From Kribbella pratensis (GTDB lineage Bacteria; Actinomycetota; Actinomycetes; Propionibacteriales; Kribbellaceae), in assembly GCF_004365355.1 (NCBI RefSeq), contig NZ_SODP01000001.1, positions 310,001-374,000 on the forward strand: DNA of 64,000 nucleotides. Direction: 5' to 3'. Shown here piece by piece: positions 4,170-53,954 of this stretch. Numbering within the stretch: the first letter of the stretch is position 1; each line of letters begins with the position of its first letter. The notes below the pieces were generated by a model. It was not told the DNA's origin and did no database searches. It saw only the letters and a list, made by a program, of their open reading frames with translations. Both the position numbers and the translations under genes were made by a program.

Positions 4170-5669
4170 CTACTGTTCGTGCGTGCTCAGCGTTTGACCG
4201 CGCAGCAGGAACCACACGGCGACCGCCGTCGCCAGCAGAACCGCGGCGCCCACACCCGCCGCCGTCGCGACACCGCTAGCGAAGGATTGGCGGGCCGCGT
4301 CCAGCAGTGCGGCTGCGGCTTCGGGTGGCAGATGCGCCGCGGCCTCGACGGCGCCGCCGAGTGACTCGTGCGCCGCGGCCGGCGTACCGACCGGGCCCGG
4401 GAAGCCTCGGTAGATGCCTGCGACGATCGAGCCGAGCAGCGCGATACCGAGCGCCGCACCGAGCTCGTACGCCGTCTCGGACACCGCACTCGCCGCGCCG
4501 GCCTGCTCTTTCGGGACTGCGGTCAGGATCACGTCAGCCGTCACGGTGAACGCGAAGCCAGCTCCTGCCCCGACCACGAGGAGCGCCGCACCGAGCAACG
4601 GATACCCGGTCGTGTGGCTGATCGTCGTGAGCGCAGCCAGCGCCAGGCCGATCGCAGCCAGACCACCGGCGACGACCGCGCGCACCGAGAAGCGTCGTGC
4701 GACGCGACCCGCCAGCAAACCGGCGACAACCGACCCGATCGCGGCGGGAAGCTCCGCGAGTCCGGCCTCGAACGGCCCCCTGCCCTGCACCAGTTGGAGG
4801 TACTGTGAGAGGAAGAAGATCAAGCCGGACAGTCCGAGGATCGTGAGCAGATCCGCCAGGACCGCGCTGCTGAAACCGCGGTGGCGGAACAAGCGCAGAT
4901 CCAGCAACGGGATCGGCAGCCGCCGCTGACGCCGTACGAATCCATAGAGCGCGGCCACGCCGACGACCAACGCCGCAACGGCAATCCAGCCGAAGCCGTG
5001 TGCCGCGAACTCCTTGATCGCGTAGACCACACCGATCATGCCGACCATCGACAGGACGACACTGGGCAGATCCCAGGGACCCGGCCGAGGGTTGCGCGAC
5101 TCGGGCAGCAGCTTCGCACCGACGACCACCAGCACCGCCATGACCGGCAGGTTGATCAGGAAGACCGAACCCCACCAGAAGTTCTCCAGCAGTACGCCGC
5201 CGACGATCGGTCCGACCGCCATACCGGCAGATGCGGACGCACCCCAGATGCCGATGGCGAGACTGCGTTCGCGCGGGTCGTGGAACAGGTTGCGGATCAA
5301 CGCGAGCGTGGCCGGCATCAGCGTCGCGCCGGCGACACCGAGCAGCGCTCGGGCGACGATCATCAGCTCGGCCGAGTTCGCGTACGCGTTGAGGATGGAG
5401 ATCGCGCCGAACGCCGTCGCGCCGATGAGCAGGATCCGCTTGCGGCCGATCCGGTCCCCGAGACTGCCCATCGAGACGAGCAGCCCGGCGAGGACGAACG
5501 AATAGGCGTCGCCGATCCACAGCAGCTGGGTGCCCGACGGCTTCAGATCCTCGGTGAGGAACGGAGTTGCCAGGCCGAGGACCGTCGCGTCGACCGCGAC
5601 GAGCAGCACGGCAAGCACGAGTACGCCGAGCGCCAGCCAGCGCCCGGGCCGGATGACCTGCTGCTTCAT
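4170..5669 (-). CDS. MFS drug efflux transporter, DHA2-type (14 TM)
   Basis: The 499-residue membrane protein has the family-defining motif A (GSLGDRIGRKRILL) and the early motif D1 of DHA2 pumps (LVAVDATVLGLATPFL). There are about 14 hydrophobic segments. The family exports drugs and antiseptics by proton antiport. I chose the ATG at 5667-5669 (MKQQVIRPGRW) because it overlaps the stop of the TetR gene by 4 nt (ATGA), the expected coupling. The reading frame stays open far upstream, but that part is antisense shadow over the TetR gene. Control is most likely by that TetR protein at the palindrome 6235-6250. Confidence 0.88.
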   Translation of the reverse strand: MKQQVIRPGRWLALGVLVLAVLLVAVDATVLGLATPFLTEDLKPSGTQLLWIGDAYSFVLAGLLVSMGSLGDRIGRKRILLIGATAFGAISILNAYANSAELMIVARALLGVAGATLMPATLALIRNLFHDPRERSLAIGIWGASASAGMAVGPIVGGVLLENFWWGSVFLINLPVMAVLVVVGAKLLPESRNPRPGPWDLPSVVLSMVGMIGVVYAIKEFAAHGFGWIAVAALVVGVAALYGFVRRQRRLPIPLLDLRLFRHRGFSSAVLADLLTILGLSGLIFFLSQYLQLVQGRGPFEAGLAELPAAIGSVVAGLLAGRVARRFSVRAVVAGGLAAIGLALAALTTISHTTGYPLLGAALLVVGAGAGFAFTVTADVILTAVPKEQAGAASAVSETAYELGAALGIALLGSIVAGIYRGFPGPVGTPAAAHESLGGAVEAAAHLPPEAAAALLDAARQSFASGVATAAGVGAAVLLATAVAVWFLLRGQTLSTHEQ

Positions 5670-6214
5670 TCCGTTCTCCGTACTGCGCCGCCGAGCAGCA
5701 ACTCGGTGATGTTCGAGGTGAAATCCCGGGAGGCGACGCGGCCCTCGTAGATCGTCCAGGCCGCGGAGACCAGCAAGCCGTAGAGCGCCTCGCTCAACCA
5801 GACCGGGCTGAGGTCGATCCGGAACTCGCCGGCCTCCTGACCGCGCCGGAACAGCGCGACCATGCGGGCATCCAGGCGGGCCCAGCCCTCGTTCTGCCCG
5901 TCGCCTTCGAAGAGCTGGTTCTCCGAGTACAGGAACGCGAGCAGGCCCGCGGCCGGCTCCAGCTCTCGCACCAGCCGTCGCACCGCGTCTGCGGCCCGAC
6001 CGTCGTCGATGTCTGCCTTCTCCACTGCGCTCTCGCACTCGGTGAGTCCGAGCTCCTCGAGCGCCCGGACGAGTGCGTCGCGTCCGGCGAACTGCCGGTT
6101 CAGCGTCGCGCGACTGATCCCGGCCGCCCGCGCGACCTCGTCCATCGTCGCCCCGGACTTCCGCATCAGCAGTCCGGCGGCATCCCGCAGTACTCGCTCC
6201 CGATCTACAGCCAT
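5666..6214 (-). CDS. TetR-family repressor of the adjacent efflux pump
   Basis: The 182-residue protein has an N-terminal TetR helix-turn-helix at about residues 8-50 (LRDAAGLLMRKSGATMDEVARAAG then ISRATLNRQFAGRDALVRAL) and a helical ligand domain with a TetR_C-type end (YGLLVSAAWTIYEGRV). It is the promoter-proximal gene of a two-gene operon with the MFS pump. A 16-bp perfect palindrome lies 20 bp upstream of its start, so autorepression together with the pump is the simplest reading. The inducer is unknown. Confidence 0.88.
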   Translation of the reverse strand: MAVDRERVLRDAAGLLMRKSGATMDEVARAAGISRATLNRQFAGRDALVRALEELGLTECESAVEKADIDDGRAADAVRRLVRELEPAAGLLAFLYSENQLFEGDGQNEGWARLDARMVALFRRGQEAGEFRIDLSPVWLSEALYGLLVSAAWTIYEGRVASRDFTSNITELLLGGAVRRTE

Positions 6215-6234
6215 GAGACAAGCCTAACCCATTT

Positions 6235-6250
6235 GAGACACTCGTGTCTC
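6235..6250. promoter_or_regulatory. TetR operator GAGACAC-TC-GTGTCTC
   Basis: Perfect 7-bp arms are separated by 2 bp, centred about 28 bp upstream of the tetR start. A further half-site-like GAGACA lies at 6215-6220. The position between the repressor gene and its likely promoter, and the class of DNA-binding protein encoded, support an operator. Confidence 0.75.
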
Positions 6251-6330
6251 TCCTCTAGCATTGGAGTCAGTATGCGGTATACGATCCGGGTGAACGGGAC
6301 GGGTGTGACCGGGAATGAATCAGGCCCGGA

Positions 6331-6336
6331 TATACT
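6331..6336 (+). promoter_or_regulatory. -10 box (TATACT) of the TerC-family transcript
   Basis: TATACT stands out in G+C-rich DNA. It would start transcription near 6343, a few bases before the aptamer at 6347, which is the right distance. No convincing -35 hexamer is at 17 bp; GTGACC at 6305-6310 is 20 bp away. Confidence 0.55.
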
Positions 6337-6346
6337 TGTTGCGTTT

Positions 6347-6497
6347 GTGGAGGGGAGTATTCCGCCACGGCAGTGTCGTCATCACGGGAGGCCTGGGCGG
6401 CCGAACCGGTGCTGCCGGCCCGAGCTGGTCGAGTTCGAGGACCGCTCGGGTGGAAGAGACCTCCGGACCAAGCTTGCTGTTCGCCGACGTCCGGAGG
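6347..6497 (+). ncRNA. yybP-ykoY (manganese) riboswitch with translational expression platform
   Basis: The conserved signature parts of this class are present in order: GGAGGGGAGTA (6349-6359), GTCGTCATCAC in the second loop region (6375-6385), and GAGACCTCC (6456-6464). P1 can form between GGAGG (6349-6353) and CCTCC (6460-6464). The P1 3' strand extended to CCTCCGGA (6460-6467) is the exact reverse complement of TCCGGAGG (6490-6497), which is the Shine-Dalgarno of the downstream gene (ATG at 6504). So with P1 formed the ribosome site is free, and without ligand it is masked. The class senses Mn2+ and often controls TerC/Alx and MntP-type genes, as here. Confidence 0.87.
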
Positions 6498-6503
6498 TTC
6501 GTT

Positions 6504-7502
6504 ATGGTCTCTGTCATGCCACCCGTTGTCTGGGTGCTCACGATCATCGGGTTGCTCGCGATCGTCGCGTTCGACCTGGTCGTGATCGCGCGCCGCAACC
6601 ACACCGTGACGATCAAGGACGCGACCCGGTGGGTGCTGTTTTATGTCGGCCTCGCGGGACTCTTCGCGCTCGGCCTGTTCCTGTTCAGCCCGGGCCAGAG
6701 CGGCAGCGAGTTCGTCGCCGGGTACATCACGGAGTACAGCCTCAGCGTCGACAACCTGTTCGTGTTCGTGATCATCATGGCGCGCTTCGCCGTACCGAGC
6801 CTGGCGCAGGACAAGGTGCTGTACATCGGCATCGTCGTGTCGATGCTGCTGCGGGCGATCTTCATCCTGGCCGGCGCGGCGGCGATCTCGGCGGCGAGCT
6901 GGGTGTTCTACATCTTCGGCGCCTTCCTGGTCTATACCGCCGTCCGGCTGGCGCTCGAGGGTGAGAACGACGAGAGCGACTTCCAGGAGAACGCCGTACT
7001 GCGGGGGATGCGCCGGATTCTCCCGATCTCGCACAACTACGACGGCGACAAGCTGACCACCCGTCTGGACGGTCGCCGGCTGATGACGCCGCTGGTGATC
7101 GTGATCGCCGCGATCGGGATGGCGAACGTGATCTTCGCGCTCGACTCGATCCCGGCGATCTTCGGCCTCACCCAGGACGCGTACATCGTGCTGACCGCCA
7201 ACGCGTTCGCGCTGATGGGCCTGCGCCAGCTGTACTTCCTGATCGGCGGCCTGCTCGAGCGGATCATCTACCTGAACGTCGGCCTGTCGGTGATCCTCGC
7301 CTTCATCGGCGTCAAGCTGATCATCGAGGCGCTGCACGGCTCGCACATCGACGACATCGGCGCGATCCACCTACCGCATATCGGCATCCTGACGTCGCTC
7401 GGCTTCATCGTCGGCACGCTGTTCGTCACCACGGTCGCCAGCTTGATCAAGTCCTCATACGACAACCGCCGGGAAGAGGTCCGCGTCAAGATCGAGGACT
7501 GA
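6504..7502 (+). CDS. TerC/Alx-family integral membrane protein
   Basis: The 332-residue protein has about nine membrane segments and the TerC acidic motifs inside them (EYSLSVDNLFVFVIIMARF; FALDSIPAIFGLTQDAYIV; FALMGLRQLYFLIGGLLER). Members such as Alx export manganese and help load secreted metalloproteins. The start is the ATG at 6504, 6 nt after CCGGAGG; this Shine-Dalgarno is the target of the upstream riboswitch. An open frame continues upstream to 6315 but runs through the aptamer and is not used. Gene, riboswitch and position together argue for manganese homeostasis. It ends 20 bp from a convergent MFS gene. Confidence 0.92.
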   Translation: MVSVMPPVVWVLTIIGLLAIVAFDLVVIARRNHTVTIKDATRWVLFYVGLAGLFALGLFLFSPGQSGSEFVAGYITEYSLSVDNLFVFVIIMARFAVPSLAQDKVLYIGIVVSMLLRAIFILAGAAAISAASWVFYIFGAFLVYTAVRLALEGENDESDFQENAVLRGMRRILPISHNYDGDKLTTRLDGRRLMTPLVIVIAAIGMANVIFALDSIPAIFGLTQDAYIVLTANAFALMGLRQLYFLIGGLLERIIYLNVGLSVILAFIGVKLIIEALHGSHIDDIGAIHLPHIGILTSLGFIVGTLFVTTVASLIKSSYDNRREEVRVKIED

Positions 7503-50957: not shown

Positions 50958-53954
50958 GTGACCCGCAAACGCCAGGCGATCATCGTCGCCTCAGCGCTGA
51001 TCGCCGCAACCGCCGGCGTACCGCTGCTGGTGAACGCGGCCAACGCCAGCCAACCGGCGACCCGAACCGCTGACCCGGACGTCAAGCGCTCCGAGACCGG
51101 TTCGTACATCGTCCAGCTCGACGACTCGCCAGTCGCCGAGTACGACGGCGGCATCGCCGGCCTCGCCGCCACCAAGGTCGCGCCCGGCGGCAAGCTGCTG
51201 AAGACCGCCGCTCCGGTGATCGACTACGTCAAGCACCTGGCCGGTGAGCGCGACCAGCTCCTGAAGACGACCAACGTCAAGAAGCTCTACGACTACAACT
51301 ACACGTACGCCGGTTTCTCCGCCGAGATGTCGTACGACGACGCGGTCAAGCTGGCGAAGTCGTCCGGGGTGAAGAGCGTCGAGCCGAGCGAGCTCGAGCA
51401 CGTCGACACCGTCGACACCCCGCGCTTCCTCGGCCTGTCCGGCAAGGGCGGCGCGTGGCAGCAGGCCGGCGGCGTCGACAAGGCGGGCGACGGCGTGATC
51501 ATCGGCATGATCGACTCCGGGTACACCCCGGAACGCCCGAGCTTCGCGCCGATGAAGACCACCAAGCAGTCCGACGCGATCATCGCGAAGAAGTGGAAGG
51601 GCACCTGCCAGGCCGGCGAGGAAGCGCCCGTCACGTGCAACAACAAGGTGATCGGCGCCCGGTACTTCGACAAGGGCATCGGCACCCGCCCGATCCCGGA
51701 GGAGTACAAGTCGCCACGTGACTACGGCGGCCACGGCACGCACACCGCGAGCACTGCAGCCGGCAACTACGGCGTCGAGATGAGCGTCATGGGCCGCGAC
51801 TACGGCAAGGGCTCCGGCATGGCGCCGCACGCTCGCCTCGCGATCTACAAGGCTCTGTGGGCGGTCGACGCGACCGGCGGCGGCAGCGGTACGGACGCCG
51901 ACATCGTGGCCGCGATCGATGCCGCGGTCGCGGACGGCGTGGATGTCATCAACTACTCCATCTCGGGCAGCGGATCGTCATACGTGAACGCCACCGGGCT
52001 CGCCTTCCTCAGGGCGGCCAAGGCAGGCGTGTTCGTCGCGACGAGCGCCGGCAACACCGGCCCGGGCGAGGCGACGGTCGGCAAGACGTATCCGTGGGTG
52101 ACATCGGTTGCCAACGGCACCCATGACCGCGACATCCAGACCACGGTCACGCTCGGGAACGGGAAGTCGTACACGGGTGCGGGCATCGGCGCCGGCGTGC
52201 CACAAACGTCGGTGATCCTGGCCAAGGATGCAGGCCTCGCAGGCGCCGACCCGGCCAACCTCACGCTCTGCCAGGCCGGCACGCTCGACCCGGCGAAGGT
52301 CAAGGGCAAAATCGTGGTGTGTGACCGCGGCGTGAACGCCCGCGTCGACAAGAGCCTGCAGGTGAAGAACGCCGGCGGCGTCGGCATGATCCTGCTCAAC
52401 CTCACCCCGAGCACGCTCGACTCCGATCTCCATTCGGTCCCGACCGTCCACCTCGACGACAAGGCCGCCCCGGAGGTCAAGGCGTACGTCGGTGGCACGA
52501 CCGACCCGACCGCGACGATCAGCGCGGGTACGCCGGTCCGCGTGACCGCGCCGATGGTGGCCGCCTCCTCCAGCCGCGGCCCGTCCCCGGCCGGCAATGG
52601 CGACCTGCTCAAGCCGGACGTCATGGCGCCGGGCACGAACGTCCTCGCCGCGACGACCGCGTTCAGCGCCGCCGGCGGCGAGTACGCGTTCATGAGCGGT
52701 ACGTCGATGTCGACGCCGCACGTCGCGGGCATTGCCGCCATACTGAAGGCCAAGCACCCGACCTGGTCCCCGATGGCGATCAAGTCCGCGATGATGACGA
52801 CCGCGACCGACAAGGACACCGCAGGCAATCCGATCAAGAACGACTCCGGCTCGCAGGCCAACCCGTTCGGGTACGGCGCCGGCCTCGTGCAGCCGAAGCT
52901 GGGCATGGACCCCGGCCTGGTCTACGACTCGACGTACACCGACTGGACGAAGTTCGTCTGCGGATCCGGTCAGGTCCCGGCCACGCACGAGCTGTGCGCG
53001 AACGGCAAGATCGACCTGAGCGACCTCAACTACCCGACGGTCGCGATCGGCGACCTGGCCGGTAGGCAGACCGTCACCCGGACCGTGACGAATGTCGGCA
53101 AGCTGCCCGAGATCTACTTCCCGAAGGTCGAGGGCGTGACGGGTCTCAAGGTGACCGTGTCGCCGCGGATCCTGGTCACGCTGCCCGGCCGCAGTACGAC
53201 GTACAAGGTGACGTTCGAGAACAGCGGGGCCCCGCTCGAGCAGTACTCGTTCGGCCGCCTGGTCTGGAAGTCGACGAAGCACTCCGTGGCCAGCACGCTC
53301 GCGATCAAGCCGCTCACGGTGAAGGCGCCGACCCAGGTCAACGGCACCGGGACGAGTGGCTCCGTGCAGGTCCCGGTCACGGCCGGGTACGCCGGGACGC
53401 TCAACACGACGGCCGTCGGTCTGGACGCGGCCGCGGTCGGCGAGGCAGCACTGAAGAGCCCGGGCGGCGTGGCGTTCCCGACGACCGCCCCGAAGGCCAA
53501 CGATCACGTCGCGAAGTTCACGGTCAACGTCCCGGCCGGTACGACGCACGCCAGGTTCTCCACGTTCGACGCGGACTACCCGGCGGGCACCGACCTGGAT
53601 GTGTTCGTCTACCGAGCCGGGACGACCACTCTGCTCGGTAGCAGCACAGGTGGTTCGGCCGAGGAGGAGATCAACCTCCTACGGCCGGCAGGCGGTCAGG
53701 TGGACGTGTACGTCGACTTGTACGCCGGAGCGAACGAGCAGACCGTCAAGCTCAACCACTGGGAGCTGCAGAAAGCTGCGGGCAACCTGACAGCCACACC
53801 GGCCAGCCAAAGCGTCCAAGTAGCCGGCCAAGCTGAAGTGACGGCCAGCTGGACCGGCCTGACCGCCGGCACCCGGTACCTGGGCCAGTTCCGCTTCTCC
53901 GACGGCGCAGACGGCTCCGGCTCCGGCTCCACCATCGTCCGAGTCGACGGCTGA
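50958..53954 (+). CDS. Secreted subtilisin-like serine protease (S8) with PA insert
   Basis: The 998-residue precursor has a signal peptide (VTRKRQAIIVASALIAATAG...ANAS) and an I9 propeptide (SYIVQLDDSPVAEYDGG, about 45-150). The S8 catalytic domain has D186 (IGMIDSGYTPERPSF), H259 (GGHGTHTASTAAGN), oxyanion N366 (TSAGNTGPG) and S583 (SGTSMSTPHVAG). A PA domain is inserted between N and S (KIVVCDRGVNARVDKS). A subtilase-type Fn3 domain (SPRILVTLPGRSTTYKVTF) and a C-terminal beta-domain follow. It degrades proteins outside the cell. The GTG start follows GGAGGA. A 16-bp terminator hairpin ends the transcript. Confidence 0.95.
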   Translation: MTRKRQAIIVASALIAATAGVPLLVNAANASQPATRTADPDVKRSETGSYIVQLDDSPVAEYDGGIAGLAATKVAPGGKLLKTAAPVIDYVKHLAGERDQLLKTTNVKKLYDYNYTYAGFSAEMSYDDAVKLAKSSGVKSVEPSELEHVDTVDTPRFLGLSGKGGAWQQAGGVDKAGDGVIIGMIDSGYTPERPSFAPMKTTKQSDAIIAKKWKGTCQAGEEAPVTCNNKVIGARYFDKGIGTRPIPEEYKSPRDYGGHGTHTASTAAGNYGVEMSVMGRDYGKGSGMAPHARLAIYKALWAVDATGGGSGTDADIVAAIDAAVADGVDVINYSISGSGSSYVNATGLAFLRAAKAGVFVATSAGNTGPGEATVGKTYPWVTSVANGTHDRDIQTTVTLGNGKSYTGAGIGAGVPQTSVILAKDAGLAGADPANLTLCQAGTLDPAKVKGKIVVCDRGVNARVDKSLQVKNAGGVGMILLNLTPSTLDSDLHSVPTVHLDDKAAPEVKAYVGGTTDPTATISAGTPVRVTAPMVAASSSRGPSPAGNGDLLKPDVMAPGTNVLAATTAFSAAGGEYAFMSGTSMSTPHVAGIAAILKAKHPTWSPMAIKSAMMTTATDKDTAGNPIKNDSGSQANPFGYGAGLVQPKLGMDPGLVYDSTYTDWTKFVCGSGQVPATHELCANGKIDLSDLNYPTVAIGDLAGRQTVTRTVTNVGKLPEIYFPKVEGVTGLKVTVSPRILVTLPGRSTTYKVTFENSGAPLEQYSFGRLVWKSTKHSVASTLAIKPLTVKAPTQVNGTGTSGSVQVPVTAGYAGTLNTTAVGLDAAAVGEAALKSPGGVAFPTTAPKANDHVAKFTVNVPAGTTHARFSTFDADYPAGTDLDVFVYRAGTTTLLGSSTGGSAEEEINLLRPAGGQVDVYVDLYAGANEQTVKLNHWELQKAAGNLTATPASQSVQVAGQAEVTASWTGLTAGTRYLGQFRFSDGADGSGSGSTIVRVDG

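Follow-up and report, generated by a model that had tools for sequence, protein, structure and literature searches.

A window of 64,000 nucleotides was analysed from an actinobacterial genome of 8.37 Mb belonging to the genus Kribbella. Between a TetR-family gene (5666-6214, minus strand, read divergently) and a gene for a TerC-family membrane protein it holds a leader, which raises the question of whether terC is controlled by a riboswitch and, if so, by which ligand and in which direction. Positions 6346-6500 very probably form a yybP-ykoY (Mn2+) riboswitch, with an L3 of the alx / L. lactis type, that acts as a translational ON switch for terC.

The terC leader and its gene setting

The aptamer lies within 6346-6471 and comprises L1 (GGAGUA/GAGA), P1.1, P1.2, P3 with a 7-nt L3, and P4, the coordinates of which were checked base by base (Table 1). 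The L1 sequence of the yybP-ykoY class, GGGGAGUA (6352-6359), is present in the window leader together with the opposing GAGA (6456-6459). P2 and a four-way junction, both seen in the crystallised members of the class, are absent from it. GCCA alone lies between P1.2 and P3.1, and the junction is therefore three-way.

Table 1. Features of the terC leader and gene, in window coordinates
Feature	Position	Strand	Basis or remark
-10-like hexamer TATACT	6331-6336	+	TAnnnT conservation; putative promoter element
P1.1 5' strand GGAGG	6349-6353	+	pairs with 6460-6464; covariation
L1 5' side, conserved GGAGUA	6354-6359	+	row conservation
P1.2 5' strand UUCC	6360-6363	+	pairs with GGAA 6452-6455; covariation
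P3.1 5' strand	6368-6378	+	11 pairs with 6407-6417
L3 UCAUCAC, 7 nt, enclosed by P3.1	6379-6385	+	A6381 aligned with the Mn2+-binding adenosine
P3.1 3' strand	6407-6417	+	covariation, base-by-base check
P4 hairpin	6418-6451	+	folding prediction and covariation
P1.2 3' strand GGAA (6452-6455) and L1 3' side GAGA (6456-6459)	6452-6459	+	row conservation
P1.1 3' strand CCUCC (6460-6464) plus extension CCUCCGGAC, anti-Shine-Dalgarno	6460-6468	+	9-bp duplex with 6489-6497
Shine-Dalgarno arm GUCCGGAGG, with Shine-Dalgarno GGAGG at 6493-6497	6489-6497	+	6 nt spacing to the start codon
terC start codon ATG	6504-6506	+	6 nt after the Shine-Dalgarno arm
TerC-family membrane protein gene, 332 aa	6504-7502	+	PF03741, E 3e-45

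The TerC target named in an earlier note on this DNA was borne out by the Pfam match, and the leader thus stands in a gene context of Mn2+ homeostasis. Upstream, 24 of 29 orthologous Kribbella leaders have a TAnnnT motif at the identical distance from the aptamer, and two more have it shifted by 1 nt; the other 21 Kribbella leaders inspected lack it at the -10 offset. Given the TATACT hexamer, the RNA is expected to begin just 5' of P1.1. The predicted start, at about 6342-6345, would place P1.1 near the 5' end of the mRNA. The TerC frame stays open through the entire leader, back to an ATG at 6315 (6315-7502, 395 aa), and gene callers may therefore annotate the riboswitch as coding sequence. 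We also noted perfect complementarity between GGUCUC at the start codon (6506-6511) and GAGACC (6456-6461), which comprises the L1 3' side and the first bases of the P1.1 3' strand.

Related leaders were collected with a sequence pattern. From the 129 matches of this pattern set we kept 74 leaders of the B type, with an L3 of UCAnnnn (nearly all UCAnnnC), and 38 of the A type, with ACAURCU or close variants; the rows dropped had no recognisable P1 3' end or another L3. To the set were added 15 paralogue leaders with AUCG. The site of P2 varies among the 74 B-type members: the stretch preceding the last nine bases of P3.1 measures 6-8 nt in 64 and 31-37 nt in the other 10. Within a single genus (L010, L013-L016, L018, L019, L021, L024, L028) this site holds either a linker of 6-8 nt or an insertion of 31-37 nt, and by sequence reading the insertions are mostly hairpin-like. 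P2 appears to be gained or lost freely within one genus.

The genome carries a second B-type leader before a TerC paralogue whose protein is 55% identical (G000:C1:1274118-1274237; locus L052:1338-1457). For a third TerC paralogue (L053) no GGGGAGTA was found in the stretch inspected. Many Kribbella orthologues share the coding stretch ATGGTCTC, which is absent from the second TerC paralogue.

Conservation, covariation and homology

Model R1 was built from 42 of the 74 B-type leaders and five of the 15 paralogue leaders, and model R2 from 27 of the 38 A-type leaders. Counting its own, 30 of 38 same-genus genomes contain a strong DNA match to the window leader (E 3e-19 or better), and all 38 encode a leader of its type, with 73 matches to R1. 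Across the phylum, R1 gave at least 78 matches in at least 60 of 296 genomes, 12 candidates per genome being scored. The phylum alignment holds 76 of these 78 matches with no sequence pattern imposed; it leaves out L145 and L150, both A-type and already in the set. The actinobacterial-type B leader is also present in Kushneria (L282), Larsenimonas (L286) and a Thermomicrobiales bin (L316), which we take to be Halomonadaceae, for the first two, and Chloroflexota, all outside the Actinomycetota.

Judged alone, the sequence does not fold unusually well (z -0.66, with 48 of 200 shuffles folding as well). Compared across 47 leaders, the proposed helices are paired in 93.2% of 1309 cells versus 83.2% for shuffled rows, 17 of 28 pairs are changed on both sides, and none of 500 shuffles scored as high on any of five measures. 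Every slid register of the helices pairs far less than the proposed one. P1.1 and P1.2 are paired in 99.1% and 99.5% of cells, with compensatory changes in two of five and two of four pairs. The figures are 91.9% for P3.1, with seven of 11 pairs changed on both sides, and 86.2% for P4, with five of its six modelled pairs so changed. We take the cross-genome comparison as decisive for the element being more than chance.

In most members P1.1 is GGAGG/CCUCC, GAAGG/CCUUC or CAAGG/CCUUG, and P1.2 is UUCC/GGAA, UCCC/GGGA, CUCC/GGAG or CCCC/GGGG, A-type leaders having mostly GCCC/GGGC. GGAGUA stands in L1 of all 74 B-type and all 38 A-type rows, but there the search pattern imposed it; free of the pattern it is found in 72 of 76 rows, the remainder being GCAGTA (three) and GAAGTA (one). 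GAGA on the 3' side of L1 is present in 73 of the 74 B-type and all 38 A-type rows.

The earlier note had proposed a covariance search with the Rfam model RF00080 as a check, taking the lack of a significant hit as a refutation, and this outcome did occur. RF00080 found no match in the window at its gathering score, none in 6215-6620 up to E 10, and none genome-wide. In a search of 197 actinomycete genomes no match passed the cut-off; at E up to 1, matches appeared in 19 of them, the best at 4.3e-7. We dropped this failure as evidence against the aptamer once the E. coli positive controls failed too: mntP scores 41.6 bits, under the model's own 45-bit cut-off, and for alx no match was listed up to E 10. 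The negative is uninformative because both of these Mn2+-responsive leaders fail the cut-off, which is a database threshold and not a biological definition. The RF00080 consensus carries the L3 ACAUACU, different from the UCAU[UC]AC of alx and the window, and this is the likely reason for the miss. As far as tested, RF00080 sees mainly one of the two L3 subtypes.

Model R2 contains only mntP-like actinobacterial leaders, none of the window's type and none before TerC. It nevertheless scores the window leader at 44.2 bits (E 5e-10), with 35.6 bits for E. coli alx and 28.2 bits for mntP. A match of 27 bits, presumed to be a false positive, lay in GC-rich coding DNA inside a 451-aa ORF read as a glutamine synthetase, and scores in the high twenties are weak in this GC-rich genome for that reason. 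The window and alx are clear of this level, and mntP is backed by its RF00080 score. We therefore regard the homology of the window leader to the verified yybP-ykoY members alx and mntP as statistically significant. With the core parts in place, the R2 score and the covariation, the observation of the earlier note is confirmed and the aptamer class that it named is supported. A second R2 match in the window (53029-53128, minus strand, 25.6 bits) runs antisense inside a 998-aa ORF read as a secreted protease and was set aside as chance, as was a P4 sRNA match (11.7 bits against a cut-off of 37).

The Shine-Dalgarno competition and the manganese site

Exact complementarity between 6460-6467 (CCTCCGGA) and the Shine-Dalgarno region at 6490-6497 (TCCGGAGG), as the earlier note had it, is found; the perfect duplex in fact has 9 bp (6460-6468 with 6489-6497) and grows to 11 when the adjoining A-U and G-U pairs are counted. 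Since 6460-6464 belong to both P1.1 and the Shine-Dalgarno hairpin, the two pairings are mutually exclusive. Perfect 8-bp inverted repeats with a gap of 4-36 nt start at 157 of the 64,000 window positions; this one coincides exactly with the P1 strand and the Shine-Dalgarno. The unconstrained minimum-energy fold is the OFF form with the Shine-Dalgarno hairpin (-76.6 kcal/mol); a fold made to contain P1.1 and P1.2 lies at -69.8 kcal/mol. Fixing P1.2 and P3.1 in both forms puts OFF at -68.9 and ON at -67.5, a gap of 1.4 kcal/mol. The forced ON fold keeps some pairing within 6465-6511. The folding would fit a default-OFF switch turned ON by metal, with a gap whose size varies with the helices that are fixed.

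To see how common the competition is, we turned to a species-genome collection scanned with a pattern covering L1-L3 only, which gave at least 118 loci. Among the 118 listed, the gene after the leader is TerC in at least 109, is cut off by a contig end in four, and is other or unidentified in five. A stem of at least 6 bp between the P1 3' strand and a Shine-Dalgarno 2-17 nt before an in-frame start is present in 85 of the 95 scored TerC leaders among the matches listed; 14 more TerC loci among them went unscored, the anchor not being found. An earlier scoring covered 80 of the at least 118 loci (72 TerC; stem in 54 of 61 scored), the later one using a stricter anchor. In the pattern set, a stem of at least 7 bp from the P1 3' strand is found in 35 of 35 B-type Kribbella leaders and 27 of 39 from other genera, and the stems of many non-Kribbella B-type leaders are, one by one, not significant against shuffles. 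Among the matches listed, own stems average 7.75 bp versus 6.30 bp after exchange of strands among loci, a comparison of 70 of the 80. A leader's own stem is above the swapped median in 54 of 70, and beats all 20 swapped partners in only 10 of 70 because much of the complementarity is the Shine-Dalgarno consensus itself. Three B-type leaders (L081, L082, L104) are without a clear stem of this kind.

The role of the P1 3' strand as anti-Shine-Dalgarno is thus supported, and the ON switch follows from it by inference. A further claim, that the design is unusually short and its compactness special to this lineage, was not supported, given the breadth of the competition among the scored TerC leaders. 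In the model alignment, E. coli alx likewise leaves no space for P2, and with so short a linker there we did not treat P2 as defining.

As to ligand, switching direction and physiology, we infer the following. At low Mn2+ the strand 6460-6468 would pair with the Shine-Dalgarno arm 6489-6497, leaving terC untranslated. Mn2+, with Mg2+, would dock L1 on L3 through A6381 and so stabilise P1.1 (6349-6353/6460-6464). Formation of P1.1 would remove the anti-Shine-Dalgarno strand and let the ribosome bind, and TerC would then deal with excess Mn2+ by export, by loading of secreted enzymes, or both. These two roles have been proposed for TerC proteins elsewhere (PMC13274385, PMC10550928).

Crystal structures are reported to have the N7 of an invariant adenosine, plus phosphates, as Mn2+ ligands, the adenosine being A41 in L. 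lactis (L3 UCA41AUUC) and A48 in X. oryzae (ACA48UACU) (PMC6754395, PMC9190785). In the window L3, UCA*UCAC, A6381 aligns with both, and binding of Mn2+ is probably there. The loop shares the form U-C-A-N-N-N-C with L. lactis, with U at the first position in both. We considered UCAUCAC as a natural A41U loss of the Mn2+-binding adenosine and rejected this, since A41/A48 is the third L3 position and is conserved. The second and third positions are C-A in 75 of 75 rows with letters, out of 76 aligned, and the fourth is U in 35, G in 22, A in 10 and C in eight. Model R1 both found the loci and guided their alignment, and the leaders that it was trained on carry this A; the invariance is still informative because most matches exceed 50 bits and one substitution would not cost significance.

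Could the same fold answer mainly another signal, such as alkaline pH or another soft divalent ion, when it carries the TerC-type L3? The window L3 differs from the mntP-like ACAURCU, the two types segregate by gene, and alx, with the L3 UCAUUAC, is reported to be induced by alkaline pH as well (PMC9603457). However, mntP is pH-responsive too in the same account, the N7-donating adenosine is invariant, and the L. lactis L3 UCAAUUC, of the same form as the window's, binds Mn2+ in crystals (PMC6754395). We consider this explanation unlikely.

The OFF hairpin may be read in two further ways. It is GC-rich, and either the hairpin (6460-6497) or Rho might stop transcription in the leader unless metal binding prevents it, mntP being described as controlled by Rho as well as by its riboswitch (PMC11647493). 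The hairpin is not followed by a U-run, though, and its downstream arm is, across genera, a Shine-Dalgarno with fitting spacing to a start codon, so that transcriptional control seems to us improbable, to about the same degree as a different signal. A constitutive hairpin (or a thermosensor) hiding the Shine-Dalgarno, with a fortuitous structure upstream and no ligand, would by itself explain low expression and would agree with the negative RF00080 result. It leaves aside the conservation of L1 and L3, the covariation of P1.1, P1.2, P3 and P4, and the homology to E. coli alx and mntP, and we give it hardly any weight. A metal-responsive translational ON switch remains our reading of the leader.

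L3 subtypes, target genes and known systems

We also examined which genes follow the two L3 subtypes. Of the 89 B-type leaders in the pattern set, 84 have TerC downstream (48 of the 50 from Kribbella, 36 of the 39 from elsewhere), as does none of the 38 A-type leaders. The A-type targets are GDT1 in 28, MntP in three and Na_Ca_ex in three, with four unassigned by phmmer; one of these four, L079, was judged a chance match. In the phylum search, GDT1 follows all 11 A-type rows and TerC, by phmmer, 42 of 62 B-type rows; three more rows had another or no readable L3. By reading, the 20 non-TerC B-type rows precede a P-type ATPase (12, three of them Pfam-checked), a Na/Ca exchanger (two, one checked), an M50 peptidase (two, one checked), a PGPGW protein (one, checked) and an unknown gene (one), or reach a contig end (two). 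A strict tie of the B-type L3 to TerC was therefore rejected. Most genes downstream of the leaders belong to cation-transport families (TerC, GDT1, MntP, Na_Ca_ex, P-type ATPase).

Some targets fall outside these families. A B-type leader stands before an M50 peptidase in L204 (by Pfam) and L208 (by reading) and before a PGPGW membrane protein in L234 (by Pfam); both would be unexpected targets of a manganese switch. The leaders of L081, L082 and L104 precede a conserved protein (DWGGILRGAV in L082, DWGGVLRGAV in L104) that in L082 has no Pfam match. Another Kribbella B-type leader, seen in L055 and L059, is followed by a short ORF starting MGLVSNF, a reading based on about 330-350 nt downstream; the L055 copy has no Pfam match.

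A- and B-type leaders are co-resident in several genomes, for example G086, G220, G225 and G311. Actinobacterial A-type leaders share with the window the helices, L1 and GAGA, and differ in their L3, ACAURCU, and in their non-TerC targets. E. coli repeats the split: alx, of the TerC family, has UCAUUAC and mntP has ACAUACU. It is possible, though we hold it only tentatively, that these are two long-separated subtypes, one mostly with TerC and P-type ATPases and the other with exporters of the GDT1/MntP type, in which L3 tunes different Mn2+ (or pH) set-points within one cell.

Among known systems, alx resembles the window leader in L3 (UCAUUAC against UCAUCAC), in the GAGACC 3' boundary and in its TerC-family target. 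It differs in the sequences of P1.2, P3 and P4; co-regulation by pH is known for alx. The mntP leader shares the L1 GGGGAGUA and the GAGACC boundary, but its L3 is ACAUACU, the model alignment shows about 14 nt inserted between P1.2 and P3, and the target belongs to another family. Reporters of both E. coli leaders are described as responding to Mn2+ and alkaline pH, and that of mntP as turning on translation initiation (PMC9603457), the mode proposed for the window leader. Like the window leader, the L. lactis yoaB riboswitch has an L3 of U-C-A41-N-N-N-C, in which the N7 of A41 binds Mn2+ (PMC6754395, PMC9190785); unlike it, yoaB is reported to act by transcriptional antitermination and to have four helices, P1-P4 (PMC9190785). 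In Vibrio parahaemolyticus, yybP-ykoY elements are predicted before mneA and terC, both Mn-induced (PMC13274385).

The link of the class to TerC and the compact, explicit design are not new. A 2017 study of 224 RNA motifs reportedly includes a terC motif. In the Actinobacteria, the cg2157 (terC) leader of C. glutamicum scored 49 bits with the RF00080 of 2013, and its 5'-UTR was observed by RNA-seq (PMC3890552). That was the one account to the point found in an incomplete literature search. A survey of yybP-ykoY covers groups including the Corynebacteriaceae and Mycobacteriaceae, and the part of its text available does not state occurrence there (PMC3766115). We found no prior description of the actinobacterial breadth, the invisibility to the current RF00080 or the segregation of L3 subtypes by gene in a search that key papers lay outside, and these three may be new.

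With these leaders, a metal riboswitch that is already well studied gains a branch that is widespread in actinobacteria. That annotation pipelines miss this branch is, we suggest, caused by the Rfam model, which is also blind to E. coli alx. With L3 split by target gene, one can test directly whether slight differences near the manganese site give one cell different response thresholds. If L3 does tune the set-points, a cell with both types would sense manganese at two thresholds, each through its own version of the aptamer.
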